A stretch of DNA of 64,000 bases from positions 1 to 64,000 of the forward strand of contig JAGMCR010000013.1 in assembly GCA_023129115.1 (NCBI GenBank), given 5' to 3'. The notes below the pieces were generated by a model. It was not told where the DNA came from. It made no database searches and saw nothing but the letters and a program-made list of their open reading frames with translations. A program made the translations under genes and the position numbers. Below, piece by piece: positions 7,699 to 42,511 of the stretch; within the stretch, counting starts at the first letter, position 1, and every line of letters starts with the position of its first letter. The stretch comes from Candidatus Iainarchaeum sp. (GTDB taxonomy: Archaea; B1Sed10-29; WALL01).

Positions 7699-7722
7699 GG
7701 GGGACGCCAATTGGCGTCCCCC
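7699..7722. repeat. 24-bp palindromic repeat, copy A
   Basis: A perfect 24-bp palindrome with half-site GGGGGACGCCAA. It is followed by CCCATAGGCCGGC, also seen after copy B. Related copies are at 40355-40378 and 44907-44930. It lies between the SRP RNA and the gene at 7777. Confidence 0.75.
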
Positions 7723-20875: not shown

Positions 20876-22135
20876 ATGATTGGGAAATACGATATAACAA
20901 GCGTCCGCGCCCGGCAAATCTTCGACTCGCGGGGCAACCCAACCATTGAATGCGACGTATCGTGCGGCAAGGGCTTCGGCCGCGCCTCTGTGCCGTCCGG
21001 CGCAAGCACGGGCAAGCACGAGGCCCTGGAGCTCCGGGACAAGGGCAAGGCCTACCACGGCAAGGGCGTCCTGAAGGCAATCGACAACATTCACCAGCTC
21101 GTCGCCCCCAAACTCATCGCCAAGGACGTCCGCGACCAGGACGGCATCGACAAGCTCATGATTAACGTCGACGGCTCGGCCAACAAGCGCAATCTCGGCG
21201 CCAACGCCACGCTCGCCGTCTCAATCGCGTGCTGCAAGGCCGCCGCGTCCGCCAAGGAAGCCGCGGTGTACGAGCACATAGGGCAAATCTATACCCATTA
21301 CGAGCCCACGTACCACACTCCCGTCCCCTTCTTCAACATAATCAACGGCGGCAAGCACTCCAACAACAAGCTCGACGTCCAGGAGTTCATGATTGTGCCC
21401 AAGGCCAAGACCTTTGGCGAGGCCATGCGCATCGGCTCCGAGACCTACTACGAGCTAAAAAAACTCCTCGAGAAAAAGTTCGGCGTCGTCGGCGTCGGCG
21501 ACGAGGGCGGCTTCTCCCCGCCCCTCAAGAAAACCAGTGAAGCCATCGACTTCATCATGAAGGCCGCCAAGTCCGCGGGCCACTCCAAAAACGTTTCCAT
21601 CGCCCTGGACGTCGCCGCCTCGGAGTTCTACAAGTCCAAGAGGTACCGCATTGACGGCAAGCAGCTCCCCCCCACGAAGCTCATGGACTACTACGAAAAG
21701 CTCGTCGAAAGTTACCCAATCGTTTCAATCGAGGACCCGTTCCACGAGGACGACTTCAAGTCCTTCGCCGGCCTCACCGAGCGAATCGGGCAAGAAGTCC
21801 AAATCGTGGGCGACGACTTGTTCGTCACGAGCACGCAGCGCCTGAAGGAAGGCATCCGCATGTGCGCTGGCAACGCCATGATTCTCAAGGTCAACCAAAT
21901 CGGCACTTTGACCGAGGCATTCGAGGCCGCGGGCCTCGCGTTCCACTCCAGCTACCAAGTCATGGTCTCGCACCGCTCGGCGGACACCACGGACAGCTTC
22001 ATCGCCGACCTCGCGGTGGGCATCGAGGCCAAGCAAATCAAGTCCGGCGCCCCGTGCCGCGGGGAGCGCCTCGCGAAGTACAACCAGCTCCTCCGCATTG
22101 AGGAGCAGGGCGTGCCGTACGCCGAGTGGTTTTGA
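20876..22135 (+). CDS. eno: Enolase
   Basis: 419 residues. It interconverts 2-phosphoglycerate and phosphoenolpyruvate. ARQIFDSRGNPT, SVPSGASTG, NIINGGKHSNN, DEGGFSP, SIEDPF, the K in LKVNQIGT and SHRSADTTDSF are all present. The TATA-like CATTTAAATACC (20842-20853) fits a leaderless start. The last 28 codons plus stop (22049-22135) are repeated at 23370-23456 beyond an inserted gene, with only synonymous differences. Confidence 0.97.
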   Translation: MIGKYDITSVRARQIFDSRGNPTIECDVSCGKGFGRASVPSGASTGKHEALELRDKGKAYHGKGVLKAIDNIHQLVAPKLIAKDVRDQDGIDKLMINVDGSANKRNLGANATLAVSIACCKAAASAKEAAVYEHIGQIYTHYEPTYHTPVPFFNIINGGKHSNNKLDVQEFMIVPKAKTFGEAMRIGSETYYELKKLLEKKFGVVGVGDEGGFSPPLKKTSEAIDFIMKAAKSAGHSKNVSIALDVAASEFYKSKRYRIDGKQLPPTKLMDYYEKLVESYPIVSIEDPFHEDDFKSFAGLTERIGQEVQIVGDDLFVTSTQRLKEGIRMCAGNAMILKVNQIGTLTEAFEAAGLAFHSSYQVMVSHRSADTTDSFIADLAVGIEAKQIKSGAPCRGERLAKYNQLLRIEEQGVPYAEWF

Positions 22136-22185
22136 GAAGCGAGTTTCTTGAGTAGTGACTCATTTTAGTAACGCGCTATTTCCCC

Positions 22186-22218
22186 CGCAGGGCTGTTTTC
22201 CTCTTCCCGGGCCCTGCG
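22186..22218 (+). terminator. Hairpin downstream of enolase
   Basis: CGCAGGGC (22186-22193) pairs perfectly with GCCCTGCG (22211-22218), with a T-rich loop. It lies about 50 nt after the enolase stop. GGGCCCTGCGT recurs at 23492-23502, shortly after the duplicated enolase end, so this may be part of the duplicated context. Confidence 0.4.
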
Positions 22219-22335
22219 TTAAAATCACTGAGAACTAGTAGCATACTTCTTCAAGTACCACTCAGGTTTCCTAGGCCCAGCCGGGGGTAGTGCCCCTTGC
22301 CATAAACCGTCTTCTTCGGGGCTCTATCTACTCAC

Positions 22336-23304
22336 TCATTTCAGCCAATATCTTCTCAAGGCGCTTCCTAATTTTTGGATCAAGTTCCGCGGCTTTTCTG
22401 AACTCTTCTGTTGTTTCTTCATATAGCCTAGGTTGTGGTGTGCGAGTGCTCTGCCATAGTCTATTAATGTGTTGTTTGGGTCTATTTCCAGTGCTTTTTC
22501 GTAGTGGTGTAATGCTTTTTCGTAGTGGTGTAATGCTTTTTTGTGGCGGTGAAATGCTTCTTCATATTGTCCTAGGTAGTAGTGTACGAATGCTTTGTTG
22601 GTGTGTGCTTCTGCGTTGTTTGGGTTTATTTTCAGAGCTGATTCGTGTGCTCGAAGTGCCGGTTCATAAGCCCTTTTTTCACGTAGATTGACACCATGAC
22701 TAGTCCACATTAGCGAAGCAAATTCTGTTTCAGATTGTTCTTCTCCTTTGTGTTTAGTTTTGGTTAAGCCTAGGGCTGGATCGAGTTGTATGCCTTCAGC
22801 AGTAATATAACAATGCCCCACATCTGATGCTTCCACACGCTCTTTTTTTTGTTTTGTTAGTTGTATTAAATCCTTGTTTTCACCCTTGACTCTGAAGTAT
22901 TTTGTTTTGACCCCGCTTTTTTTCAGCATTTGTGCGAGTACTGCAGGTAATGCCACGCAATCTGCTACTTCTCCTAGTCGAAAACGAGGGATAGTTTTGA
23001 CTGTGGGTTCATCAAGCTTACTTCCAAATTTGCTTAATTTTTCAAAAAAAGCATCAAATCTCAACTCTTCATTTCGTTCGTGCACCCATTCACTCAGTTT
23101 AATGGCAAGTTTTTTCTTTGATAATTTCTTGTTTCGTTTTATCCAGTCACCGGGTTGTTCCAACTTTTTTGGTGGCCGTGTTTTGAACAAATCAGGCGTG
23201 GCTTTAATGAATTCGTTCAATAACTTGTTAACAGAAGCAGGGGCAAAGGTTCGCTTAACCAGTTCTTTTTTGGTTAATCCTTTTGGTGGCTTTTTCTTGG
23301 GCAT
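22336..23304 (-). CDS. Transglutaminase-like protein with TPR tail
   Basis: 322 residues. The N-terminal half carries a transglutaminase-like triad: C116 in VADCVALPAVL, H164 in DVGHCYI, D175 in IQLDPA. The C-terminal half is TPR-like (YEPALRAHESALKINPNNAEAHTNKA and two more units). Three tandem 21-bp repeats (about 22500-22562) encode KALHHYE units inside the TPR region, a recent expansion. The lysine-rich N-terminus is basic and no signal peptide is seen. A TATA-like box on the minus strand (about 23330-23339) suggests a leaderless mRNA. The gene lies between the two copies of the enolase 3' end, so it is probably inserted cargo. Confidence 0.78.
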   Translation of the reverse strand: MPKKKPPKGLTKKELVKRTFAPASVNKLLNEFIKATPDLFKTRPPKKLEQPGDWIKRNKKLSKKKLAIKLSEWVHERNEELRFDAFFEKLSKFGSKLDEPTVKTIPRFRLGEVADCVALPAVLAQMLKKSGVKTKYFRVKGENKDLIQLTKQKKERVEASDVGHCYITAEGIQLDPALGLTKTKHKGEEQSETEFASLMWTSHGVNLREKRAYEPALRAHESALKINPNNAEAHTNKAFVHYYLGQYEEAFHRHKKALHHYEKALHHYEKALEIDPNNTLIDYGRALAHHNLGYMKKQQKSSEKPRNLIQKLGSALRRYWLK

Positions 23305-23369
23305 CTAAAATAATTATTGTTTTTGAGACTTTTTAAACACACAGTTTGTTACGGGGTTTTTTGGCCAGA

Positions 23370-23456
23370 GCCCCCTGCCGCGGCGAGCGCCTCGCCAAGT
23401 ACAACCAGCTCCTCCGCATCGAGGAGCAGGGCGTGCCGTACGCCGAGTGGTTTTAG
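23370..23456 (+). pseudogene. Duplicated 3' end of enolase
   Basis: Twenty-eight codons plus stop aligning without gaps to the end of eno (22049-22135). The encoded peptide is identical. Differences are synonymous (CCG/CCC, GGG/GGC, GCG/GCC, ATT/ATC), plus TGA versus TAG. No start or upstream coding part exists. It marks the far side of the insertion carrying the transglutaminase-like gene. Confidence 0.92.
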
Positions 23457-23545
23457 GACCGCTGAAAACCAAGGCGCCACGGCTTAGGCGGGGGCCCTGC
23501 GTAATACTCGTTTTGTGGTGGGTACCCACCACCCTTTTTATATTA

Positions 23546-23566
23546 GTATATACTTAATGTATATAC
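23546..23566 (+). promoter_or_regulatory. Inverted-repeat operator of toxin-antitoxin operon
   Basis: GTATATAC-TTAAT-GTATATAC, a perfect 8-bp inverted repeat whose arms are themselves palindromic. The second arm (23559-23566) is centred about 29 nt before ATG 23592 and can double as the TATA box, as expected for an autoregulated operon. Confidence 0.6.
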
Positions 23567-23591
23567 AACACGTATCAACACTGGTGAACCA

Positions 23592-23858
23592 ATGATTAAG
23601 TACCACGGCAAATGGTTGGTAATAAAGCGGCATCCAGCAAATGAAATGAACAAGCTGGGGCTTGACCCAGAAGACATTGTTAAGTTCCTTGAGAAAGGAA
23701 GGCAATTCGAACACAGAGAAAAAGGCAAGGTGGAGAAGTGGTGTCCACGGGGCGATAAGATATACAATGTCGTGATAGCCGAGTATCAAGATACTCTGGT
23801 ACTAATTCACGTCGGAAGGTTCAAGAAAACAAAAAAACACATGGCAAGATTGAGGTGA
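23592..23858 (+). CDS. Small toxin-like protein (DUF4258/MqsR-like)
   Basis: 88 residues. The basic alpha-plus-beta pattern (HPANEMNKLGLDPEDIVKFL, then KIYNVVIAEYQDTLVLIHVGRF) matches small RelE-fold or DUF4258-type toxins. It is followed after 4 bp by a zinc-finger/AbrB antitoxin-like gene. Ribonuclease activity would be the family expectation but is not shown by sequence. It sits directly beyond the enolase duplication. Confidence 0.65.
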   Translation: MIKYHGKWLVIKRHPANEMNKLGLDPEDIVKFLEKGRQFEHREKGKVEKWCPRGDKIYNVVIAEYQDTLVLIHVGRFKKTKKHMARLR

Positions 23859-23862
23859 ATTC

Positions 23863-24186
23863 ATGAAAAAGAAAGCGGTCTCGCACTCATGCACGGAGTG
23901 TGGAGGCAAAATGGCGTATGTAGAAGACATAAAATTTAGGGGCTATCTACTTGAAGGCCTCCGTTGTAAAAAGTGTGGTGAAGAAGAGATGGATCTAGAG
24001 CAAGTAGGTGGGATAGTCAGACTGGAACGTATGAAAAAGAAAGAAACACTAATGGCAAAAGCCTACAAATCAGGAAACAGCATGTCTCTTAGAATCCCCA
24101 TGGCTCTAGCAAAGGCATTTGGAATAGAGCCAGGTGAAGAGCTCCCCATAACTACCAAGGGCCACACCATAGAAATATTGGCTTAG
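23863..24186 (+). CDS. Antitoxin-like protein: YgiT-type zinc finger plus AbrB domain
   Basis: 107 residues. A CxxC...CxxC zinc ribbon (CTECG, then CKKCG, residues 9-40) as in MqsA/YgiT antitoxins is joined to a SpoVT-AbrB DNA-binding domain (KSGNSMSLRIPMALAKAFGIEPGEEL). It would bind the partner encoded at 23592 and the inverted repeat upstream. The first half resembles MqsA, but the usual HTH is replaced by AbrB. The stop is followed at once by a GTAGTGCCTA/TAGGCACTAC inverted repeat. Confidence 0.78.
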   Translation: MKKKAVSHSCTECGGKMAYVEDIKFRGYLLEGLRCKKCGEEEMDLEQVGGIVRLERMKKKETLMAKAYKSGNSMSLRIPMALAKAFGIEPGEELPITTKGHTIEILA

Positions 24187-24190
24187 AGGT

Positions 24191-24222
24191 GTAGTGCCTA
24201 TGGCTTTGTTCGTAGGCACTAC
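24191..24222. promoter_or_regulatory. GTAGTGCCTA/TAGGCACTAC inverted repeat
   Basis: A perfect 10-bp inverted repeat (24191-24200 and 24213-24222), 4 bp past the antitoxin stop and followed by a T-rich stretch. As RNA it could terminate transcription. The arm TAGGCACTAC is also the core of the word found before both AbiEii-like genes. Confidence 0.55.
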
Positions 24223-24288
24223 AGGGTTATTTAGAGACTGCGCCGCGTTCTCCTCTCCCACGGCCCGCGTCAATTTACTGCCCTTAGT

Positions 24289-24333
24289 TTTATCACTACA
24301 AAATAGGTAGATATATAAATATGTAGTGATAAA
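24289..24333 (+). promoter_or_regulatory. fic-2 promoter within an 11-bp inverted repeat
   Basis: TTTATCACTAC (24289-24299) and GTAGTGATAAA (24323-24333) form a perfect 11-bp inverted repeat around the TATA box ATATATAAAT (about 24311-24320). The start codon follows at 24342. GTAGTGATAAA occurs again at 25326-25336, just after the gene. Confidence 0.65.
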
Positions 24334-24341
24334 ACCTGTTT

Positions 24342-25298
24342 GTGACATACGTAGTAAAGAAAAAGATACACGGGAAGTATTACCACTACGTTGGGCGCTC
24401 TTTCCGGGTGGGCAACAGAGTCATTTCTGTCCAACGGATAATCCCGACACCGAGGGAACCCAAAGAAAAGATAGTGGCCCGGTATGAGGCAGAGCTGGAA
24501 GAAATGGAAAAGAAGTTTTGGAGGCATCGGGCCATGAAGAAATTTAAGGCCAATCACATTTTCACTGGAGAAGAACTGGTCAAGATAGAGGACATGAAAG
24601 TAGAGTACGCGCGGCTGCTGCGGGAGATGGCCAAAGAAGACAGGAAACAATTGTTTGACCGCTTCACTGCCAACTTCACGTATGAGTCAGATGCCATTGA
24701 GGGGAGCACCCTCACCCTGAAGGACGTTGAGATAGTGATGTTCGAGAACAGGGTCCCGAAAGGCGCGGACTTGAGGGAGGTATACGAGACCCGGAACTCG
24801 CGCAGAGTCATGGAACTGATACTCAACAAGAAGTTCAACGTGAGCGAAAAGAGCATCAAGAAGATGCATAAGATGCTGATGAAGGACATAGACGCGCGAG
24901 GCGGATACAAGCGGTTCCCGAACGCCATACCTGGAGCCAGATTCAAGACCACTCCCCCGGAAAGAGTGGCTGGAGAAATGAAGGGGCTCATGGAATGGCA
25001 CGCGAAAAACAAGGAAAAAATGAGCCCGGTGATGCTTGCCACACACTTGCACGGAAAGTTCGAAAAAATCCATCCCTTCGCGGACGGCAACGGGCGGGTC
25101 GGCCGGTGGCTCACCACAGTCATCCTAGTCAACGAGGACTACCCACCACTCATCATCAGGAAAACACAGAAGGGCTCTTACCGGGCAGCGCTAAGCGCTT
25201 TTGACTATAAACACGCGGACAAGCTAGAGAGGTTCTTTCTGGACAAGTACAAGAAGACGTACAGGTCGTTCTTCAAAGAGTACCACAAGTATTTATAA
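24342..25298 (+). CDS. Fic-domain protein (AMP-transferase-like) 2
   Basis: 318 residues, GTG start at leaderless distance from its TATA box. The catalytic motif HPFADGNGRVGR is at 244-255, with the inhibitory S-D-A-I-E-G motif at 116-121 (class II). The N-terminus (KKKIHGKYYHYVGRSFRVGN) matches the module on Fic 1 and on the AbiEii-like proteins. No antitoxin gene is adjacent, in keeping with built-in inhibition. Target unknown. It lies in the accessory block after the enolase duplication. Confidence 0.88.
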   Translation: MTYVVKKKIHGKYYHYVGRSFRVGNRVISVQRIIPTPREPKEKIVARYEAELEEMEKKFWRHRAMKKFKANHIFTGEELVKIEDMKVEYARLLREMAKEDRKQLFDRFTANFTYESDAIEGSTLTLKDVEIVMFENRVPKGADLREVYETRNSRRVMELILNKKFNVSEKSIKKMHKMLMKDIDARGGYKRFPNAIPGARFKTTPPERVAGEMKGLMEWHAKNKEKMSPVMLATHLHGKFEKIHPFADGNGRVGRWLTTVILVNEDYPPLIIRKTQKGSYRAALSAFDYKHADKLERFFLDKYKKTYRSFFKEYHKYL

Positions 25299-25325
25299 CT
25301 ACGAAATACTAAGAATAACTATATT

Positions 25326-25336
25326 GTAGTGATAAA
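25326..25336. repeat. GTAGTGATAAA word after fic-2
   Basis: A third copy of the fic-2 operator word, 28 bp beyond the stop codon and upstream of gpmI. It may mark the cassette end or bind the same regulator. Confidence 0.5.
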
Positions 25337-25476
25337 CTATTGGTGGGCTGTTTGATAAAGATTTGCCTTTCCGCGGGCACTTCCATTGCAAAAACCACTA
25401 TGAAAAGGCCCCCCACACCTATTTTGCTAAAACCATTAAATATACAGTGTTCTTCTTGTTTGCTGAGGTAATCCCA

Positions 25477-32868: not shown

Positions 32869-32959
32869 CTGACACCCTCACCTACTATTGTAAACGCTCT
32901 GCTATAAAAAATTTACATCCAGCGCAATGCTTAAAAGCCCCGCACCCGTCTTTAGGGGC

Positions 32960-34621
32960 ATGGACTTCGCCGCCGTGGCAGAAACCCTTTCCACTCTCGA
33001 AGAGACGCCGTCCCGCCTCGAAATGACCGAGATAGTGGCGTCCCTCCTCAAAAGCAGTGGCAGGGACCTCCGCACAGTAGTCCTCTTCATCCGGGGCCGC
33101 GTCTTCCCGCCGTGGGACCCCCGCGAAATTGGCGTCGCCCAAAAGTCCATGATAAAGTGCGTCTCCACAGCCACCGGCACCCCAGCAAAAAAAGTCGAGG
33201 AAACAATCGCGGCGCTCGGCGACACCGGCCTCGCCGCCGAAGCACTCTTCACGAAAAAGCCGCAGACCACGCTCACCAAGAAAAAAATGTCCCTCGCCGA
33301 AATACATTCCTCGCTCGAAAAAATGGCTTCGTGGGAGGGCAAGGGCACCCAGGAAAAAAAGGGCAGGCACGTCATCGAGCTCCTCAACTCCGTTTCCCCG
33401 AACGAAGTAAAGTACCTTGTCCGCCTCGTGCTCGGCGAAATGCGCGTCGGCGTCGGCGAAGGAATCATGCGCGACGCCATTGCCAAGGCGTTCGGCGTCC
33501 CTGCCGCAGAAGCAGAGCGCGCGTTTTCACTAATCAACGACTACTCCGAGGTCGCCGAAATCGCGCGCACCAAGGGCGAGGCCGGGCTAAAGAAAATCGG
33601 CATTTTATTGTTCCGCCCGCTGCGGCCAATGCTCGCACAAACAGTGCACTCTGTCCAGGAGGCATTGGACAACGGTTGCAGGGCTTGGGAATATAAATAC
33701 GATGGAATGAGAATACAGGCCCACATCAAAAACGGCGAGGTCCGCGTCTTCACGCGCCGCCTCGACGACGTCACCCACCAGTTCCCGGACGTCGCCGAAG
33801 CCATCAAAAACACCGTAACCGCCAAGGAGGCAATCATCGAGGGCGAGACAGTCGCCGTCGACGAGTCCGAGCGCCCGCGCCCGTTCCAGTTCCTGTCGCG
33901 CCGCATCAAGCGCAAGTACAAAATCGACGAAATGGTGCGCGACATTCCCGTCATTACCTACTTGTTCGACTGCATGTACCTCGACGGCAAGAACCTCACC
34001 ACCCAAAAAATGAAGGGGCGCCGCGCGGCGCTCAACAAAATTGTCACAGAAGGCAACCACGTGAAGTTCTCGAGGACGCTCATCACAAACTCTGCCGACA
34101 AGGCCGAGTCCTTCTACAAAGAATCACTAAAACTCGGCCACGAGGGGGTGATGGCCAAGAACCTGGGCGCCGCGTACAAGCCGGGCTCGCGGGTCGGGTA
34201 CATGTACAAATTAAAGCCCGTCACCGAGACCCTTGACTTGGTCATCGTGGCTGCGGAGTGGGGCGAGGGGCGGAGAGCCAACTGGCTCGGCTCTTACCTC
34301 CTGGCCTGCCGCGACCCGGACACGAACGAGTTCCTCTCGATTGGCCGAATGGCGACTGGAGCCAAGGACGAGCAGCTCCAGTACCTCACTGACACGCTAA
34401 AGCCCACAATCGAGTTCCAGAAGGGCAAGTTCGTCAAGCTGAGGCCCACTCTCGTCGTCGAGGCCGGCTACCAGGAAATCCAGAAGTCGCCCACGTACGA
34501 GAGCGGCTACGCGCTGCGCTTCCCCCGCTTAATCACAATCCGCGAGGACCGCGCCCCCGAGGAATGCGACTCGCTGGACCGGGTTGCGTCTTTGCACGAG
34601 CGGTTCACTGCGAAGAAATAG
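32960..34621 (+). CDS. lig: ATP-dependent DNA ligase (archaeal)
   Basis: 553 residues from ATG 32960, because a TATA-like box (CTTAAAAG, about 32930-32937) lies 25-28 nt upstream and the family begins MDFxxVAExxxxLE. An upstream ATG at 32927 precedes this box. It seals nicks during replication and repair. The N-terminal DNA-binding domain is followed by the adenylation motif EYKYDGMRIQ with nucleophile K246, then KLGHEGVMAKNL and YKLKP. The last 34 codons plus stop (34517-34621) recur at 35389-35493. Confidence 0.96.
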   Translation: MDFAAVAETLSTLEETPSRLEMTEIVASLLKSSGRDLRTVVLFIRGRVFPPWDPREIGVAQKSMIKCVSTATGTPAKKVEETIAALGDTGLAAEALFTKKPQTTLTKKKMSLAEIHSSLEKMASWEGKGTQEKKGRHVIELLNSVSPNEVKYLVRLVLGEMRVGVGEGIMRDAIAKAFGVPAAEAERAFSLINDYSEVAEIARTKGEAGLKKIGILLFRPLRPMLAQTVHSVQEALDNGCRAWEYKYDGMRIQAHIKNGEVRVFTRRLDDVTHQFPDVAEAIKNTVTAKEAIIEGETVAVDESERPRPFQFLSRRIKRKYKIDEMVRDIPVITYLFDCMYLDGKNLTTQKMKGRRAALNKIVTEGNHVKFSRTLITNSADKAESFYKESLKLGHEGVMAKNLGAAYKPGSRVGYMYKLKPVTETLDLVIVAAEWGEGRRANWLGSYLLACRDPDTNEFLSIGRMATGAKDEQLQYLTDTLKPTIEFQKGKFVKLRPTLVVEAGYQEIQKSPTYESGYALRFPRLITIREDRAPEECDSLDRVASLHERFTAKK

Positions 34622-34954
34622 CTATGCCGTAATGGGGATGGGTATCGAGTCCTGGAGCGGTTCTTTGTAAATGGACAACAGCTTGAAGCCCACGACCAGG
34701 TTGTCCCCTTTTATGTTGTACTTTAGCTCTGCCGCTTTTATTCCTTCCAATGCTTTTTCTGTTTGTGCGGTTGTCAAGTCTACCCCAATCACTTCAGAAG
34801 CGTCAAATATTTCCAGCCCACTCACTCTGTCTTTGTCGTCCATATCCACGACGAATATATCATCGGCCGAAACCAAGGAGTACTGTGATTTTCTCCCCTT
34901 CACGTTTAGCAGTAGTATGTCTTCGTCCTTGTTGTATACCCATTCCGCTTTCAT
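34622..34954 (-). CDS. DUF2283-like protein (antitoxin-like)
   Basis: 110 residues from ATG 34954, which overlaps the stop of the upstream gene (ATGA). The start WVYNKDEDILLLNVKG and GLEIFDASEVIG are typical of DUF2283 proteins, which commonly accompany DUF4258-type toxins. The stop codon abuts the ligase stop on the other strand. The pair lies between the two copies of the ligase 3' end. Confidence 0.72.
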   Translation of the reverse strand: MKAEWVYNKDEDILLLNVKGRKSQYSLVSADDIFVVDMDDKDRVSGLEIFDASEVIGVDLTTAQTEKALEGIKAAELKYNIKGDNLVVGFKLLSIYKEPLQDSIPIPITA

Positions 34955-35310
34955 TTCTTCTTCGCCTCCGGTATCCGCCTTTTGTTGAACCGTGACTTCC
35001 GCTTCTTCTTCCGCAACCAATTATACGAGATGACTATTAAATGGTTATCCCTGAATCTCACAACCACTCTTAAATCGTAAGTCCTGCTGCCATGGAACAC
35101 AAGTAGCGTTCGTCCTTTTCTGGCTTTCTCCGCTTTTTTTAGCCCAGTGAGCCGGTTCTCAAAAAAGTCCAAAACTTTTTCCTTGGGTGGCCGCCCCTGC
35201 CTTTCCTCGATTTCGGTGACGTGTGGGGTGAACACTATAACGGATTGGCGTATCCTCTCCCGTGTTTCCTTGATGTCAAGGGGCTCTTTTTTCAGGGCAT
35301 CAATTCTCAT
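34951..35310 (-). CDS. DUF4258-like small protein (toxin-like)
   Basis: 119 residues. The beta-rich core GRTLLVFHGSRTYDLRVVVRFRDNHLIVISY precedes a strongly basic tail (KKKRKSRFNKRR), as in RelE-fold RNA-cleaving toxins. The family call is tentative and rests partly on the DUF2283-like partner. A TATA-like box on the minus strand (about 35331-35340) is at leaderless distance from ATG 35310 and lies inside a 39-bp repeat shared with 38346-38385. Confidence 0.6.
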   Translation of the reverse strand: MRIDALKKEPLDIKETRERIRQSVIVFTPHVTEIEERQGRPPKEKVLDFFENRLTGLKKAEKARKGRTLLVFHGSRTYDLRVVVRFRDNHLIVISYNWLRKKKRKSRFNKRRIPEAKKK

Positions 35311-35334
35311 CCCACTCTTTAGTATGTCCGCTCA

Positions 35335-35373
35335 GTATAAAAACCGCTTCTGCTACGGCCTGCCGAGAAAAAA
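35335..35373. repeat. 39-bp terminal-like repeat, copy 1
   Basis: Starts GTATAAAAACCGC and ends CTACGGCCTGCCGAG plus a run of A. A similar unit (31 of 39 positions) lies at 38346-38385. The two bracket the second accessory block after ligase, so they may be element ends. The CTACGGC-TGCCGAG part can fold. Confidence 0.6.
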
Positions 35374-35388
35374 GAGTTGGGTGGGCCA

Positions 35389-35493
35389 CGCTTCCCCCGC
35401 TTAATCACAATCCGCGAGGACCGCGCGCCCGAGGAGTGCGACTCGCTGGACCGGGTTGCCGCTCTGCACGAGCGGTTCACCGCGAAGAAGTAG
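35389..35493 (+). pseudogene. Duplicated 3' end of DNA ligase
   Basis: Thirty-four codons plus stop aligning without gaps to the end of lig (34517-34621). Differences are almost all synonymous (GCC/GCG, GAA/GAG, GCG/GCC, TTG/CTG, ACT/ACC, AAA/AAG); one changes Ser to Ala. No upstream coding part is present. The next gene's stop (35477, minus strand) lies inside it. Confidence 0.93.
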
Positions 35494-36313
35494 GTGTTCT
35501 TGTCACTTCTTTCATCATGAAGGCGTCTATCGGGGCGTCGTGCGCGTAGTAGTCCCGCATTTCCCTCAGCTCTTTGTCCCTGATGTGGGGGTGCTTTGCC
35601 AGGTAATTGAAGAAGGTCAGGTACTCGTTTTCCGGGGTCACGTGCTTTATCCTGTTCCTGAACATTATGGTTAGGGCGTCCTGGAGAGCGTGTGCCGTTG
35701 GGTTTTTGGTCGCGAACTTAATCGCTGATTCTTTGTCCAGTATCCGTGTTTTCGTTTCTTTGGAGGCGGTTTTGACTTCTACTTTCAGTGATTTTTCTTC
35801 CATTTTCTGGTAATCCGAGTTAGGCACTACGTTGATGTAGAAGTCAAGCTTCCTGGCCTTCAATAGGCGAAAAGTAACCCGCTTGGCTTTCAGCTTTTTC
35901 TCAATCTTTTTGATGTTGTCTTCGACAGTCACGAGCTCCACGTTTTTGCCCATGCGGTACTCTGCATAGACAATGGTTGTTATAGGCCTGTTGACCAGGG
36001 CCAGGCCTTTTATTTCGTCCAATAGCTCAATCATGGCATTTGCTATTTCCGGCAGCTCCGCGCGTTCCAATGGCTTCCTGCCCGCTTTCTCTTTTTTGCG
36101 GATAACTGCTATTTGCCTATCCGTTAGTGCTTTCCTGGCTTCTTTGGTTATCTCGGTGTTTGGTGTCACAACAACGGTTTTCAATCTCTTAAACCGCTCA
36201 AGTTTTTTGGTTGCCCCGATGCCCACGTAATTGTTAAATTTGACACTAGTGATATTGTTAGGGAGTCCTACCAGGTCGTCACTGTTTCGTATGTAGTCCA
36301 TGCCAAGCCTCAT
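35477..36313 (-). CDS. Hypothetical protein in ligase-linked accessory block
   Basis: 278 residues from ATG 36313; no family recognised. It is a mixed alpha/beta, charged, soluble protein. A strand-rich first part (TSVKFNNYVGIGATKK, LKTVVVTPNTEI) is followed by a helical, lysine-rich middle and a C-terminal part (AHALQDALTIMFRNRIKHV, then LAKHPHIRDKELREMRDYYAHDAP). Its codons for VVPNS contain TAGTGCCTAAC (35819-35829), the word also found before the AbiEii-like genes. The stop lies inside the duplicated ligase end, so it entered with, or was fused onto, that junction. It may be a third component of the adjacent AbiE-like cassette. Confidence 0.6.
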   Translation of the reverse strand: MRLGMDYIRNSDDLVGLPNNITSVKFNNYVGIGATKKLERFKRLKTVVVTPNTEITKEARKALTDRQIAVIRKKEKAGRKPLERAELPEIANAMIELLDEIKGLALVNRPITTIVYAEYRMGKNVELVTVEDNIKKIEKKLKAKRVTFRLLKARKLDFYINVVPNSDYQKMEEKSLKVEVKTASKETKTRILDKESAIKFATKNPTAHALQDALTIMFRNRIKHVTPENEYLTFFNYLAKHPHIRDKELREMRDYYAHDAPIDAFMMKEVTRTPTSSR

Positions 36314-36360
36314 CAATCATGATGTATCACTATGCTCACTAGTATCACGATAGTCACTAT

Positions 36361-36376
36361 TATGCAAATTTGCATA
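36361..36376. promoter_or_regulatory. 16-bp palindrome in divergent promoter region
   Basis: TATGCAAATTTGCATA is a perfect palindrome between the hypothetical gene (start 36313, minus) and the AbiEii-like gene (start 36455, plus). It is a probable binding site for a dimeric regulator. Confidence 0.5.
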
Positions 36377-36411
36377 TTTATGTATTTTTATAGAAATCCA
36401 ATTTTATTTGG

Positions 36412-36430
36412 GTTAGGCACTATATTTTTA
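36412..36430 (+). promoter_or_regulatory. GTTAGGCACTA word and TATA box
   Basis: GTTAGGCACTA (36412-36422) runs into the TATA-like TATATTTTTATA. The box is centred about 28 nt before ATG 36455. The arrangement matches that at 314-335 before the paralogous gene. Confidence 0.6.
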
Positions 36431-36454
36431 TAGTTGGGTGCCAGGAGTACACCC

Positions 36455-37390
36455 ATGGCCTACACACGCAAAAAGACGATCAAGGGCCACGAATACGCTT
36501 ACATGGTCAAGAGCGTGAGGACCCCCAAAGGGCCGAGGCAGAAGGTAGTGGAGTACTTGGGCGCTGCCCAGAGCGGCGTGCTCGGGGCGGGTCGCCTGGG
36601 CGGGGTGAGGTTTGGCACTGGTTTTTCTGTGCCGGCTGATGAGGTCAGGGCGTTGGCCAGGGAGCAGGGTGCGTCCCTTGGGATGGCTGAAAAGGACTTC
36701 ATGCTATCTGTTTTCTTGAAGTACTTGTACCTCGTTCCTGGCTCTGAAGTGCTGGTCTTCAAGGGCGGCACTGCCCTGTCAAAGGTTTACGTCAAGGGCT
36801 ACCGATTGAGCGAGGACTTGGACTTCACTGCCATGATAAAGGACAAGAAAGCCGTCAGGGAACTCCTCCGCAGGGCCGCACGCGAGCTGGGGTTTGTCAT
36901 CAAGCGCGAGAACATGACCTCGCGGAGTTACACGATACGCTTGGGTTTTGTGGGCATGCTGATGACGCCGAACAGCATCCACATTGACGTTGACTTCACG
37001 CGCACGCCAGTGCTGAAGCCCAAGCACGTAAAAAAGAAGCTGCCGTACAAGGGGCTTGGGTATGCCACGATGGTTGTGTACGACCTGCGCGAGTTGTTTG
37101 CCGAAAAGGTTATGGCCTTATCGCATCGTAAGAAGCCAAGGGACTTCTACGATATTTGGTACCTGTTCAAACACAAGCGCTTCAACCGCTCCGAGATAGC
37201 CAAAATCGTCAAGGCGAAGGGCCGAGAGTTTCCGCCCGGGCTTGATGTGCCAGGCATTTTCTCGGGGACTGACGCGGCCAGGCGGCAGTGGAAGAACAGG
37301 CTCGTGGAACTCATGCACGATGTGCCGGACTTTGACGTGGTCTTGGCAGAGCTGCGGCCCAAGCTAGAAGCCCTCGAGAAAGCCAAATAA
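36455..37390 (+). CDS. AbiEii-like nucleotidyltransferase (toxin-like), second copy
   Basis: 311 residues from ATG 36455; this start matches the N-terminal module of its paralogue and fits the TATA spacing, whereas the in-frame TTG at 36434 does not. KGGTAL (105-110 region) and SEDLDF about 16 residues later carry the catalytic Ser and Asp residues. LRELFAEKVMAL and PRDFYDIWYL follow. Residues 1-36 (RKKTIKGHEYAYMVKSVR) are the module shared with both Fic proteins. It converges on an AbiEi-like gene with a 27-bp overlap. Toxicity is inferred. Confidence 0.86.
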   Translation: MAYTRKKTIKGHEYAYMVKSVRTPKGPRQKVVEYLGAAQSGVLGAGRLGGVRFGTGFSVPADEVRALAREQGASLGMAEKDFMLSVFLKYLYLVPGSEVLVFKGGTALSKVYVKGYRLSEDLDFTAMIKDKKAVRELLRRAARELGFVIKRENMTSRSYTIRLGFVGMLMTPNSIHIDVDFTRTPVLKPKHVKKKLPYKGLGYATMVVYDLRELFAEKVMALSHRKKPRDFYDIWYLFKHKRFNRSEIAKIVKAKGREFPPGLDVPGIFSGTDAARRQWKNRLVELMHDVPDFDVVLAELRPKLEALEKAK

Positions 37391-38185
37391 CTGCTTGTCC
37401 TCGATGTTCTTGATTACCTTCCACTTCTTGTCTATGCCCCCCCTTCTTTCGGCAAAGGTGGAGAGGGGGACAGCTGTTGTGTCACGCTTTATGGCTTCGT
37501 GGAGGGGCTTCGTGGGCCTGACCCCCAGCTTGTCCATTACGTAGCCCAGGCGCTTTACCAGTGTCTTGTTGCGCATTTTGAGCGCGTATTCACAGAGCTT
37601 CTTGGCGTTGATTTCGCGCCTGGCGAAGTAGAGGGCCTTGGCGCACTCGGCGACGCCCAGGGAGTACTGTGGCTTGTCAAAGCAGTCCACAACAGTTTTT
37701 TCTTTCGACGCCATGTTGATGGCCGGGCCGCCCTTGAGCTCTACCTCTTCCCAACCAAAAAACTTGTGCTTGGACAGCGTGACGAACTTGTAGTCCACTC
37801 CATGGAACCGTGTTATGTCCTTTTTTTGTTTAGTGGTTGCTACGTAAACCGAAATAGGTATTTGCTCGGTGAATCCCCAGAAGTTCATGGCGCTCACATA
37901 GGACACGTAGTAAGGTGAGACCAAGTTAGGCACTATGAGCCACTGGTGCTCCCACCAACCTTCTTCACCCGCCTTTGTGGGTATGAGCACGTACTTGTCC
38001 CGTTCTAGCCTATCGAACCACCCCCCCTTTGTGAGGCGGTGCATCAAGTCCCTTGCCACGCGCTTCTTGCCACCCACTATTTTTCGCACGTCAGCCATGC
38101 TAACGACTGCCTTGCCCTCACGCTCTAGGCGCGACACTAGCCTAAAGCCCTTTTTGCCCAATGTCTTGCCTTTATTTTTTCTCAT
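37364..38185 (-). CDS. AbiEi-like antitoxin/transcription regulator, second copy
   Basis: 273 residues. Winged-helix segment LMHRLTKGGWFDRLERDKYVL, then GFTEQIPISV, KHKFFGWEE and ASKEKTVVDCFDKP. It is clearly homologous to the gene at 1233-2039. A TATA-like GTTATATAG (about 38209-38217) lies at leaderless distance, and an ATAATCGC/GCGATTAT inverted repeat lies between box and start, which suggests autorepression. The VPNL codons again contain the 11-bp word (37925-37935). Confidence 0.83.
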   Translation of the reverse strand: MRKNKGKTLGKKGFRLVSRLEREGKAVVSMADVRKIVGGKKRVARDLMHRLTKGGWFDRLERDKYVLIPTKAGEEGWWEHQWLIVPNLVSPYYVSYVSAMNFWGFTEQIPISVYVATTKQKKDITRFHGVDYKFVTLSKHKFFGWEEVELKGGPAINMASKEKTVVDCFDKPQYSLGVAECAKALYFARREINAKKLCEYALKMRNKTLVKRLGYVMDKLGVRPTKPLHEAIKRDTTAVPLSTFAERRGGIDKKWKVIKNIEDKQLFGFLEGF

Positions 38186-38186
38186 T

Positions 38187-38217
38187 ATAATCGCCTATTA
38201 CGCGATTATCTATATAA
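38187..38217 (-). promoter_or_regulatory. Operator and TATA box of second AbiEi-like gene
   Basis: ATAATCGC (38187-38194) and GCGATTAT (38202-38209) form a perfect 8-bp inverted repeat with a 7-nt loop. It is directly followed by the TATA-like box, read on the minus strand. It is not present at the first AbiEi-like gene, so the operators have diverged. Confidence 0.6.
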
Positions 38218-38313
38218 CAAAACAAGTATAAATACCTTGCTGTGGCACAGCCTAAAAGTAGCCCACACCCAAAAAAAGTGTTGACGCAGGGTTGGTGGGG
38301 GGCTATCCCATCA

Positions 38314-38385
38314 GTTAGGCACTACATTTTATTGGAATGCCCTCGGTATAAAAAGCGTCCACTCTACGGCTTGCCGAGAAAAAAA
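38314..38385. repeat. GTTAGGCACTA word and 39-bp terminal-like repeat, copy 2
   Basis: GTTAGGCACTA is at 38314-38324. Then a 40-bp unit (38346-38385) starts GTATAAAAAGCG and ends CTACGGCTTGCCGAG plus A-run, matching 35335-35373. This is the far end of the accessory block; the core-like gene at 38399 follows. Confidence 0.55.
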
Positions 38386-38398
38386 TAATTAGCCTGGG

Positions 38399-39286
38399 CT
38401 ACACTGCTTTGGTAGCCCAGTTGATTATGTTCCTGAACAGGTCTTCCTGGTTCAGTTCAATCGGGTTGTACGCGAGGTAGACAATGCGGCCGCCCGTGGC
38501 CCCGGCGTCGTACGCGATGAATCCCGCGGTGCTCTGGCCCTTGCCGCTCCCGTCCGTCCACTCAATCCAAGCGACTTTGTTGCTTGCGTACGGCTCGTTC
38601 ACCAGCGTCACGCCACTGAAGGACGCGTAGTTTGCAATATTGATTTTGAAGGGTGCAGTTATGCCGGCGCGTGTGAGAATTTGGTGCTTGTACTGCGTCG
38701 GCACGAACTGGACATCGCTCATGTCGCTCGGCAGCACAGTCACTGCGCCGATGGTGTTGCAGTTAGTGAAGGACGGGCACGCGGGCTCGAACTTGACTAT
38801 CTTGGCCATGTCGTCCACGGCCCACCCAAACGTGTACTCGCTTATGGAGCCGTCCGTGTTCATCTGGTTCAGGCCAGCGCCACGCACAATGATTAGCGCG
38901 CCGCCCGAGTTGACGTAGTCCGTGATTTCGTTTCTTGCCTCGGTCGTCAGTGCCGTGCTGTCGCCGTAGAGAATCACGAGGTCGTAGTCATTGCTTGTTA
39001 TCGCGCCCGCACGGATGTGCTGCTGCACGTTGTTGTCAATCACCGGCGTTATCTTGGTCACGCGGCTGCTTATGTCGGTGCCAAAAGTCTTGGCGGCGTC
39101 GTAGTCACTGGGGTTTGTGATGATGAGGGTCTGGACGCTCTCGCCCGCACAGAGGAAGCTCAGGAAGGAGGGGCATATCCCCATGAACTGGGTGGCGACC
39201 ACCACCAGCACCAAGGCGACCAACACTATTGGTATGGCCATCTCGGCGAACTGCTTTTGTCCTCCTCCGCGCGGATAGAACGCCAT
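38399..39286 (-). CDS. Membrane-anchored GATase-like-fold protein
   Basis: 295 residues. A short cytoplasmic N-terminus and one membrane helix (MAIPIVLVALVLVVVATQF) precede an extracytoplasmic domain. The pattern TLIITNPSDYDAAKTF, YDLVILYGD, ITDYVNSGGALIIVRGAG and RIVYLAYNPIELNQEDLFRNIINW resembles the class I glutamine-amidotransferase-like fold seen in DUF4350-type proteins. No catalytic Cys-His pair is obvious, so it may be a binding domain. A GAGGTG ribosome-binding site precedes ATG 39286. It is coupled to a paralogue at 39299. Confidence 0.72.
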   Translation of the reverse strand: MAFYPRGGGQKQFAEMAIPIVLVALVLVVVATQFMGICPSFLSFLCAGESVQTLIITNPSDYDAAKTFGTDISSRVTKITPVIDNNVQQHIRAGAITSNDYDLVILYGDSTALTTEARNEITDYVNSGGALIIVRGAGLNQMNTDGSISEYTFGWAVDDMAKIVKFEPACPSFTNCNTIGAVTVLPSDMSDVQFVPTQYKHQILTRAGITAPFKINIANYASFSGVTLVNEPYASNKVAWIEWTDGSGKGQSTAGFIAYDAGATGGRIVYLAYNPIELNQEDLFRNIINWATKAV

Positions 39287-40294: not shown

Positions 40295-40402
40295 AGTGGG
40301 GGACGAACAAAACGCAGTTGGTTACTCGGCCCCTATGGCAAGCAAACTGGACTAGGGGGATGCCAATTGGCACCCCCCTTAGGCCGGCTCGAGTCCCCCA
40401 CT
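40295..40402. repeat. Palindromic repeat, copy B, inside larger inverted repeat
   Basis: AGTGGGGGAC (40295-40304) and GTCCCCCACT (40393-40402) are perfect inverted repeats. They enclose a near-perfect 24-bp palindrome (40355-40378, half GGGGGATGCCAA). Relative to copy A, one C-G pair has become T-A on both sides, which preserves the stem. The right arm abuts a duplicated gene end. The region otherwise holds no gene. Confidence 0.7.
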
Positions 40403-40440
40403 CAGTAGAGCATGAACTCAATCAAGTTCTTCACGAACAC
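40402..40440 (-). pseudogene. Duplicated 3' end of the gene at 40517
   Basis: Twelve codons plus stop (VFVKNLIEFMLY) matching 40517-40555. Five codons differ, all synonymously (CTG/TTG, GAA/GAG, TTT/TTC, CTG/CTC, TAT/TAC). No upstream coding part is present. About 76 bp separate the two copies. Confidence 0.88.
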
Positions 40441-40516: not shown

Positions 40517-42511
40517 TCAATACAGCATAAATTCAATCAGGTTCTTCACGAACACTTCGTCTGTCTCTGGCGGGAACGCGTAATAGACGACCACGCCCCT
40601 GCCGAAGATGTGGCTCGCGAACTTCGGGTCCTTCACCGTAATCCCCGGCCACGTGTTCGCGTTCCGGTACGCCGGCGTCACGTGCAGCTGCACCACCTCG
40701 TGCGAGTTGACGTCGTTCGTCTCCACCAGCACGAACGGGACAGGCAAGTCATTTTTCTTCAAGTCCTTCGCGCGCGTCACCCCTTGCACCAATGGGTGCT
40801 TGACGTCCGCTACCTGCATCACCGCCAGTGCCTCGCTCTCCGTCGCCGGGTCGAGCCGCACTTCCTGCGCAGCCTCAATCGCCGCTGCCGCCGAGTTCAT
40901 TCCCTCGGCAAACCCATCGCCGCACTTGAGCGACATGTCCCTGAGCCCGCGCGCAAGCGCCGCCCATTCGCTGCCCTGCGCAGTGCGGATGAAGTCCACC
41001 GCACCGTTCTCGTCCACAAGCGGCGACGAATAAGCAATCAGCGTGTTCAATTCCTCGATGTGCCCGGTCTCCGCCGAAATGGCCTCGGCCACGTTCCCGA
41101 CCTCATCCTCCTCGCACGAATTGTACTCGTTAGCGTCACTCCGCAGCTTTGCCGCAGCGGCCTCGATGTCGGAGACCCTCGACCCCAGCAGCGAAATGTG
41201 GGAGTCATAGTTCGACTTCACGACCGCGTCTTCTTCACTCGCCCTCAGCGACTCAAGCGACGACTTCGCGCCCGCGACTTTCGTGGCAATGCCCTCAATC
41301 GCGGTTATCTCCATGCTTGTGGGCACGCCATCAGGGATAACAACGGCCTCAATATCGTCGATGTACCCCTCCATCTTCGTTGCGGCAGAACTCACCGCGC
41401 TGGACGACTCGCCCCTCGCGTCCTTCTGCTGCGCCAGCGACTTCAGCGTCGTCACCACGCCGCCCAAATCAGTCTTGGCGCCGCTCTTCTCGTTCTCCAG
41501 GCCCGCGAGGCCCGCGTTAACGGCGGCAAGCGCCGCCGTGGGGCTGCACCCGCCCTCGCCGCCGAGCGCGTTGTGGCACACGACAAACCCTGCGTGCGCG
41601 CTCGCCAGGCCTTCCATGACAGTGTCAATCCCCGCGTAGTACCTGTCGAACTCTGCCACGGCATAATCGTCCGCCACGAAGCCGACGCCGAGCACGCTCT
41701 TGCCGAAGTCAATCCCGCCCTCGGTGCCCTCGGCAGTGATTTTTTCGTACTCGCCCCTTGCCCACGGGTTCGCCGTGGTCCTGAAGCCTTGCTCGTTGTC
41801 CCACCTGAAGTAAATGTCCTGGTAGCTCCCGCCCTCGCACGGGTAGCCCTTTGTGCCGCTCACGCCAAGCGTCCCGTCGAACGCGTCCGCGCAGATGCCC
41901 TCGATGTGCTCGAGCGCGCCGGCGATTAGCGCTTCCTTTTTGATTGCGAACGCCTCGCTCGCCATGGCGTCGGACGGCGTGCTTACCTCGCTTTCCTTGA
42001 CGCAGATTTCTTCTTCGTATTCCTGGATGCGCTTGCCGCCCTCGTCGCGCCACTCGGCGGTGTACTCCATGGTCCTGCACGTTTGGTCGCTCGACGAGCC
42101 GATTGTCCCGGCGTCTCCGACCCAGACCAGTCTCCCCATGTCCTCGAACAAGTAGTTGTAGAACACCTTGAGCTTTTCCGTCGGTATTTCGCGCGCGTGC
42201 TCAACGATAATCAGTGAATAGTCCTGGATATTGCCCTTGGACACTTGGTCGACGCGCAGCTTCTGCACGGGCAGCTGGTACTGCGTCTCAATCATTCGTG
42301 CGAGCGTGTCGGGCGAGCCCATTCCCTCGTCGCCCCTGATAATCAGTATGGTCGGCTTCCCGAGCACGGAATAATAAATGTCGCAGTATCCCTGGCCGAG
42401 CGACGAGCAACCCACGAGCCCGGTCTTGGTCGCGACAATAAGCAGCGCGAAGACCAGCACTCCAATAGCAATCAAGTGGGGCAGGTTCTTCTGCAGGTCT
42501 TGGGACGCCAT
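40517..42511 (-). CDS. Large membrane-anchored GATase-like protein with coiled-coil insertion
   Basis: 664 residues. One N-terminal membrane helix (LIAIGVLVFALLIVATKTGLVG) is followed by the first half of the fold seen in the two neighbours (KPTILIIRGDEG, YSLIIVEHARE, GRLVWVGDAG). A Cys-containing middle with long helical segments (about 180-560) follows, then the second half (VKHPLVQGVTRAKDL, GRGVVVYYAFPPETDEVFVKNLIEFML). The insertion makes it more than twice as long as its paralogues. A TATA-like ATATAAATAC (about 42531-42541, minus strand) gives a leaderless start. Probably a surface assembly factor; function unknown. Confidence 0.72.
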   Translation of the reverse strand: MASQDLQKNLPHLIAIGVLVFALLIVATKTGLVGCSSLGQGYCDIYYSVLGKPTILIIRGDEGMGSPDTLARMIETQYQLPVQKLRVDQVSKGNIQDYSLIIVEHAREIPTEKLKVFYNYLFEDMGRLVWVGDAGTIGSSSDQTCRTMEYTAEWRDEGGKRIQEYEEEICVKESEVSTPSDAMASEAFAIKKEALIAGALEHIEGICADAFDGTLGVSGTKGYPCEGGSYQDIYFRWDNEQGFRTTANPWARGEYEKITAEGTEGGIDFGKSVLGVGFVADDYAVAEFDRYYAGIDTVMEGLASAHAGFVVCHNALGGEGGCSPTAALAAVNAGLAGLENEKSGAKTDLGGVVTTLKSLAQQKDARGESSSAVSSAATKMEGYIDDIEAVVIPDGVPTSMEITAIEGIATKVAGAKSSLESLRASEEDAVVKSNYDSHISLLGSRVSDIEAAAAKLRSDANEYNSCEEDEVGNVAEAISAETGHIEELNTLIAYSSPLVDENGAVDFIRTAQGSEWAALARGLRDMSLKCGDGFAEGMNSAAAAIEAAQEVRLDPATESEALAVMQVADVKHPLVQGVTRAKDLKKNDLPVPFVLVETNDVNSHEVVQLHVTPAYRNANTWPGITVKDPKFASHIFGRGVVVYYAFPPETDEVFVKNLIEFMLY

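Follow-up and report, generated by a model that had tools for sequence, protein, structure and literature searches.

Why the 3' end of a DNA ligase gene should occur twice, on either side of a small gene pair, is the question raised by this locus, and with it comes the question of how lone toxin-antitoxin (TA) modules that carry no transposase enter chromosomes. The locus lies in a stretch of 64,000 nucleotides (the window) from Candidatus Iainarchaeum sp., whose genome is a draft metagenome-assembled genome (MAG; 88.6% complete, 19 contigs, 1.25 Mb). Here lig, encoding a ligase with 57-64% identity to those of order-level relatives, is followed by cassette A, a second copy of the lig 3' end and block B (Table 1). 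We refer to the copy that ends the intact gene as the functional tail and to the copy beyond the cargo as the stranded one. The earlier note had described a repeat of 34 codons plus stop with a single amino acid change, and the comparison bore this out: the copies were 93.3% identical over 105 nt, with seven differences, of which six are synonymous codon changes and one replaces an amino acid (S555A). Since Lig, used as a protein query against all 1.25 Mb of the assembly, retrieved only lig itself and the tail copy (E = 3e-15), the copy is not a chance match.

Table 1 Features of the lig, eno and 40517 loci (window positions; a dot marks features without strand)
Feature	Position	Strand	Basis or remark
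lig, ATP-dependent DNA ligase, 564 aa, intact	32927..34621	+	Pfam DNA_ligase_A_N/M/C
Functional lig 3' tail, 34 codons and stop	34517..34621	+	D8 repeat in sequence comparison
Cassette A, 767 bp	34622..35388	.	47% G+C vs 59% in lig
DUF2283 protein, probable antitoxin, 111 aa from internal ATG	34622..34957	-	PF10049
119-aa partner, probable BrnT/RelE-like toxin	34951..35310	-	Predicted fold
Motif CTACGGCCTGCCGAGAAAA behind TATA-like box, near right edge of cassette A	35353..35371	+	
Stranded lig tail, probably the host's original end	35389..35493	+	Repeat and Lig protein search
279-aa protein, no family match	35477..36316	-	Pfam, NCBIfam and PADLOC searched
Block B, 2.9 kb, second insertion in lig/38399 gap	35494..38398	.	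Empty in G005, G007, G009
AbiEii toxin	36434..37390	+	PF08843, 111 bits; PADLOC AbiEii
AbiEi antitoxin	37364..38185	-	PADLOC AbiEi, 234.6 bits; under NCBIfam cut-off
Second copy of motif CTACGGCCTGCCGAGAAAA, near right edge of block B	38364..38382	+	
Convergent backbone gene, lig neighbour at empty site	38399..39286	-	Gene order in relatives
Functional eno 3' tail, stop TGA	22049..22135	+	
eno insertion: TPR protein, stranded eno tail, DUF4258-like and MazE/zinc-ribbon pair, Fic	22136..25362	.	
Stranded eno tail with stop TAG, shared with G003	23370..23456	+	
Stranded 3' end of gene 40517-42511(-)	40402..40440	-	In 115-bp unit with hairpin repeat

The two genes of cassette A had been read as a DUF4258/DUF2283-like pair, which held for one of the partners. 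The DUF2283 gene matched its Pfam family with 27.2 bits (cut-off 23); its longest open reading frame begins at 35020, and the 111-aa form uses an internal ATG. The DUF4258 identity of the 119-aa partner is unconfirmed, because the protein had no match in Pfam, NCBIfam or PADLOC. It also showed no similarity to the DUF4258-like protein of the eno locus, and no homologues were found in the 19 class genomes searched. A single-sequence structure model was obtained with moderate confidence (pLDDT 70), and the fold search retrieved BrnT (3u97) at the top, followed by MqsR, YoeB/ParE and HigB2, with probabilities mostly of 0.8-1.0 but E-values of 0.02-0.15. The model suggests a BrnT/RelE-like toxin fold, and the predicted function of cassette A is probably that of a TA pair.

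The accessory block that had been noticed directly behind the lig duplicate, with a gene of unknown type and an AbiE-like pair, was recovered as block B. Its 279-aa protein had no match in Pfam, NCBIfam or PADLOC; the AbiEi and AbiEii genes are adjacent, but lie on opposite strands. Six exact copies of GTTAGGCACTA (window positions 314, 1791, 35819, 36412, 37925 and 38314) are confined to the surroundings of two AbiE-like modules, with 0.44 copies expected when one mismatch is allowed; this motif is possibly an operator of AbiEi. Cassette A and block B each end 16-17 nt past a TATA-like box plus CTACGGCYTGCCGAGAAAA, an edge motif that may be a shared cassette end or a donor promoter cut at the junction. 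The box and CTACGGCYTGCCGAGAAAA together had 21 loose matches genome-wide versus about one expected, and elsewhere they often stand upstream of gene starts.

A comparison of lig 3' flanks across relatives had been proposed as a check. The order eno, gpmI, asp, kh, lig, 38399, 39299, 40517 (numbers are window positions) is conserved among family members; family-level relatives carry the name Candidatus Diapherotrites. In G005, G007 and G009, which belong to three other families of the order, lig and 38399 are separated by 10-60 bp, and in G003 and G004 the gap is occupied by other genes. At eno, the family member G003 has the stop codon TAG, one base and then the gpmI start, a distance that is 3.2 kb here. 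Because relatives show empty sites, we conclude that 34622-38398 and 22136-25362 are insertions; an old duplication that has stayed in place does not account for them. Conservation of the arrangement at one position across distant relatives, named beforehand as the mark of such a duplication, was not seen: the other class genomes searched had no tail copy beside eno, PCNA or lig. The draft state of the MAG (incomplete and in 19 contigs) leaves some room for static partial duplications or an assembly artefact. Both are nevertheless very improbable given the empty sites and the recurrence of the pattern in an independent assembly and in Altiarchaeales (see below), and since the tail copies differ from each other, they are not assembler repeats.

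The parallels drawn earlier with enolase and the gene at 40517 were found again, with tail repeats at both, and the pattern extends further. We read the genome in stretches and scanned C-terminal tails for repeats with the stop codon in register. Same-strand tail copies (at least 10 of 14 amino acids, stop aligned) formed 12 local pairs, compared with 6 across the remainder of the genome, and all 12 local copies sit downstream of their intact gene, including a doubtful low-complexity pair (C5:77912). The protein tail scan and nucleotide self-comparison gave about 11 genes that have another copy of their 3' end downstream in the same orientation: lig, eno, the 40517 gene, a PD-(D/E)XK gene with four additional copies, RNase Z, PCNA, an MscS-like channel, a Hef-like helicase, a radical-SAM-like gene, the thermosome and a 210-aa gene on contig C12. 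Aldehyde dehydrogenase is less convincing. Several of the names were assigned by reading the proteins, that of RNase Z from the protein of G001. The repeats vary in length (about 20-105 nt), the homology usually stops at the stop codon, and the tails of these unrelated genes share no common core. At C7 and at PCNA, the gene end has been re-used in tandem.

The cargo comprised MNT/HEPN at PCNA (Pfam), a ParE-like pair at hef (Pfam, the ParE match being under the curated cut-off), DUF4258-like and MazE-like proteins (both under curated Pfam cut-offs) with Fic at eno, and AAA/DUF4143 at mscS (Pfam; PDC-S01 in PADLOC). TA genes are common but not required, because at 40517, RNase Z, C19 and the thermosome the short units contain a hairpin repeat and nothing else. 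The G+C content was 0.42-0.51 in cargo versus 0.54-0.61 in the genes at the lig, eno, PCNA, mscS, hef, C7 and C13 loci. With regard to known TA pairs, the cargo belongs to or resembles AbiE, HEPN/MNT, HicAB, ParE-like and DUF4258/zinc-ribbon modules, whereas its location and the linked gene tail are the unusual part. A two-hairpin intergenic repeat, in which the core YCTAACGTGCCAGCTGAGTTTCAGCTG stands beside a G-rich hairpin, occurs in the window at 7699, 9030, 40484 and 44907; the genome has about 35 sites with this repeat, dispersed, oriented and mosaic, and sometimes it forms the whole content of a tail-swap insert.

Similar cases were detected in other genomes. G001, an independent assembly from the same genus, had three in 0.52 Mb (L118, L119 and L238), one of them with a HicA/HicB-like pair as insert, and at its RNase Z and TFB-like genes a different hairpin repeat is found in the same role. 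A supposed tail copy in the G001 PCNA gene was rejected as a 151-bp contig overlap. One or two cases were present in 0.26 Mb of G003 and none in the 0.22 Mb of G004 scanned. In 1.28 Mb around the lig genes of other archaea, two of five tail-scan matches look genuine: tyrS of Altiarchaeales, which is followed by a DUF4258-like and zinc-ribbon pair, and an aldolase-like gene (both names from reading the proteins).

The divergence of the tails bears on which copy came from where. Third codon positions held 80 of the 119 differences over 18 tail pairs, and 46/67 in those pairs that the nucleotide comparison detected, a set free of the bias of detecting tails by protein similarity. When a tail was duplicated and then left to decay in simulations, the third-position share was about 0.46-0.48 (p = 5e-4 for 46/67); for lig, at most one replacement codon among seven differences had a probability of 0.02. 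Because the differences concentrate at third codon positions, both tails once served as functional gene ends. These data are relevant to insertion with long target duplication, in which the cargo copies about 100 bp of its target and the copies then diverge in place. Such insertion is described for restriction-modification systems (Nobusato 2000, Furuta 2010; PMC3874152, PMC3031569). These insertions resemble our case in the small addiction modules, the absence of a transposase, the lineage specificity and the long variable repeats of about 100 bp; here, however, what is repeated is the coding 3' end of a core gene, the divergence is synonymous and the functional copy seems to have arrived from outside. 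As for presence and absence of the insert between relatives at a defined site, the lig and eno sites are empty in relatives. Repeats of the length expected from copying the target (about 20-105 nt) are present, but their synonymous divergence argues that one copy did not come from this target. Long target duplication would fit the lineage-specific addiction modules without transposase, the near-identical 75-nt repeat at Altiarchaeales tyrS, which runs into non-coding DNA, and, equally well, the nearly identical tail copies in L149 and L143. On the other hand, stranded copies should then decay at all codon positions, in contrast to what was observed; the reading frame is open in nearly all of them, and the functional copies of eno and PCNA bear a new stop codon. 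We therefore regard long target duplication as improbable.

The stop codons point to the direction of the exchange. The stranded eno copy has the stop TAG followed by GA, as does eno of G003, and both stranded PCNA copies end with TAG as in G001, whereas the functional ends of eno and PCNA have TGA. Since the stranded copies keep the stop codon of the relatives, the functional eno and PCNA ends probably came in with the cargo. In G001, the stranded RNase Z tail overlaps the start of the next gene (TAATG). Judged from these sequences, the functional end is probably the newcomer at eno, PCNA and G001 RNase Z, and by analogy the functional lig tail would probably be the newcomer and the stranded copy the original. 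The general mechanism proposed in the earlier note, by which cargo inserts at 3' ends of conserved genes and leaves the host gene intact, thus stands in part: insertion recurs at about 11 genes, with empty sites in relatives and the gene functional, but the host's own end is probably not untouched, as the functional end looks incoming. Codon usage was also tried as a mark of the foreign tail; lig alone leans 3:0, and there was no signal across loci (26 versus 27 sites).

Our preferred reading, to which we assign a probability of roughly 0.57, is an end swap by homologous recombination within the gene tail, with an incoming diverged tail and its cargo. The TA pair would have reached the gap between lig and 38399 linked to a synonymously diverged copy of the lig end. 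Recombination within the last ~100 nt would then exchange the ends, so that the ligase reads into the new tail and the old one comes to lie beyond the cassette. The function of lig would be kept throughout, and a crossover from tail to tail would delete the cassette and leave a full-length ligase; carried out in silico, this crossover restored full-length Lig, Eno, 40517 and PCNA. The same swap would have occurred at about ten other genes of the genome. The incoming DNA would derive from related Diapherotrites through general homologous recombination with no dedicated integrase, with tail homology on one side and a circle or an illegitimate join on the other. Against this reading, neither a donor molecule nor a circle came to light, and searches of viral and plasmid sequences for the tail or the TA genes gave no match. 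The first junction of tail and cargo would most likely go back to an earlier insertion beside the same gene in a relative, and TA addiction would favour retention of the cassette. Because homologous recombination would act in each tail, different tails would explain the different targets. If so, about eleven loci would keep a readable scar of the entry route in the form of an exchanged gene end; the end swap would account for the harmless settling of cargo at essential genes, and from it one can predict the foreign end and the way in which a cassette may be lost. The Altiarchaeales tyrS case suggests that this route is not confined to one family. A comparable event is known from the R.PabI locus of Helicobacter pylori ELS37, with one homologous and one non-homologous junction and a duplication around the insert (PMC4615327). 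Both cases share mixed junctions with incoming DNA and the duplication left behind, but in ELS37 this was a single event with a 1577-bp duplication and an insert of about 50 kb.

Restoration of a gene 3' end is also the hallmark of integrative elements such as prophage e14 in icd. In Thaumarchaeota, integrated mobile genetic elements target 3'-distal gene regions, with att sites of 17 bp (median; PMC6563490). As in such elements, the target here is the 3' end of a protein-coding gene, a new end with a stop codon is supplied, the old one is displaced and a target may be re-used in tandem. The inserts, in contrast, are 0.1-3 kb long, lack integrase and replication genes and occupy many unrelated targets, with repeats of up to 105 nt and no common core. 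Cassettes could accordingly be circles whose attP includes the gene tail, integrated in trans by a tyrosine recombinase, for which the XerA-like protein at C12:78360 would be the helper. A genome-wide search for PF00589 found this gene only, and none in the lig cassette. Besides the anatomy of restored and displaced ends with tandem re-use at C7 and PCNA, integration in trans could explain why the sole recombinase lies in a 6.9-kb stretch bordered on both sides by copies of a gene tail (77380-77552 and 84323-84495, 93%) and why an identical block is seen at the inner edge of the tail in lig (38 nt at the 5' edge) and C19 (50 nt). A 5'-edge crossover core was not supported as a general feature, however (pooled polarity 0.516 versus 0.547 under the null), the cassettes carry no integrase, and one enzyme could hardly read about eleven unrelated tails that share no core. 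Moreover, the C12 protein may be an ordinary chromosome recombinase, because its match is to XerA (131 bits against a cut-off of 220) and its score as an integron integrase falls well short of the cut-off (46.8 versus 265); its sequence also contains a zinc ribbon. We consider integration in trans unlikely, albeit worth keeping in view. Integron cassettes, suggested by GTTRRRY-like boxes in the hairpin repeats, were rejected, as the recombinase scored far below the IntI cut-off and the repeats are dispersed and do not form arrays. The C12 stretch itself (C12:77454-84322; L077, L078 and L104) encodes the XerA-like recombinase with a zinc ribbon, isochorismatase-like and subtilisin-like genes, and has copies of a 173-nt gene end on both sides.

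More speculatively, a dedicated archaeal mobility system might move TA genes or bare hairpins as cassettes tagged with a recoded core-gene end, which seems quite unlikely to us. The idea that this tag would serve as both address and rescue ('insert and rescue') and be read by a putative recombinase is just as tentative.

Two further observations concern relatives. In G003, about 1 kb of DNA (L196:8998-10001) interrupts lig between residues 262 and 264, within an open frame of 919 aa, and this interruption is probably an intein. In G001 (L106, contig C2), a stretch that reads as a GNAT gene on the opposite strand occurs in two nearly identical copies, spaced by 1.3 kb, with a gene of unknown type between them; this is possibly another long-repeat insertion.
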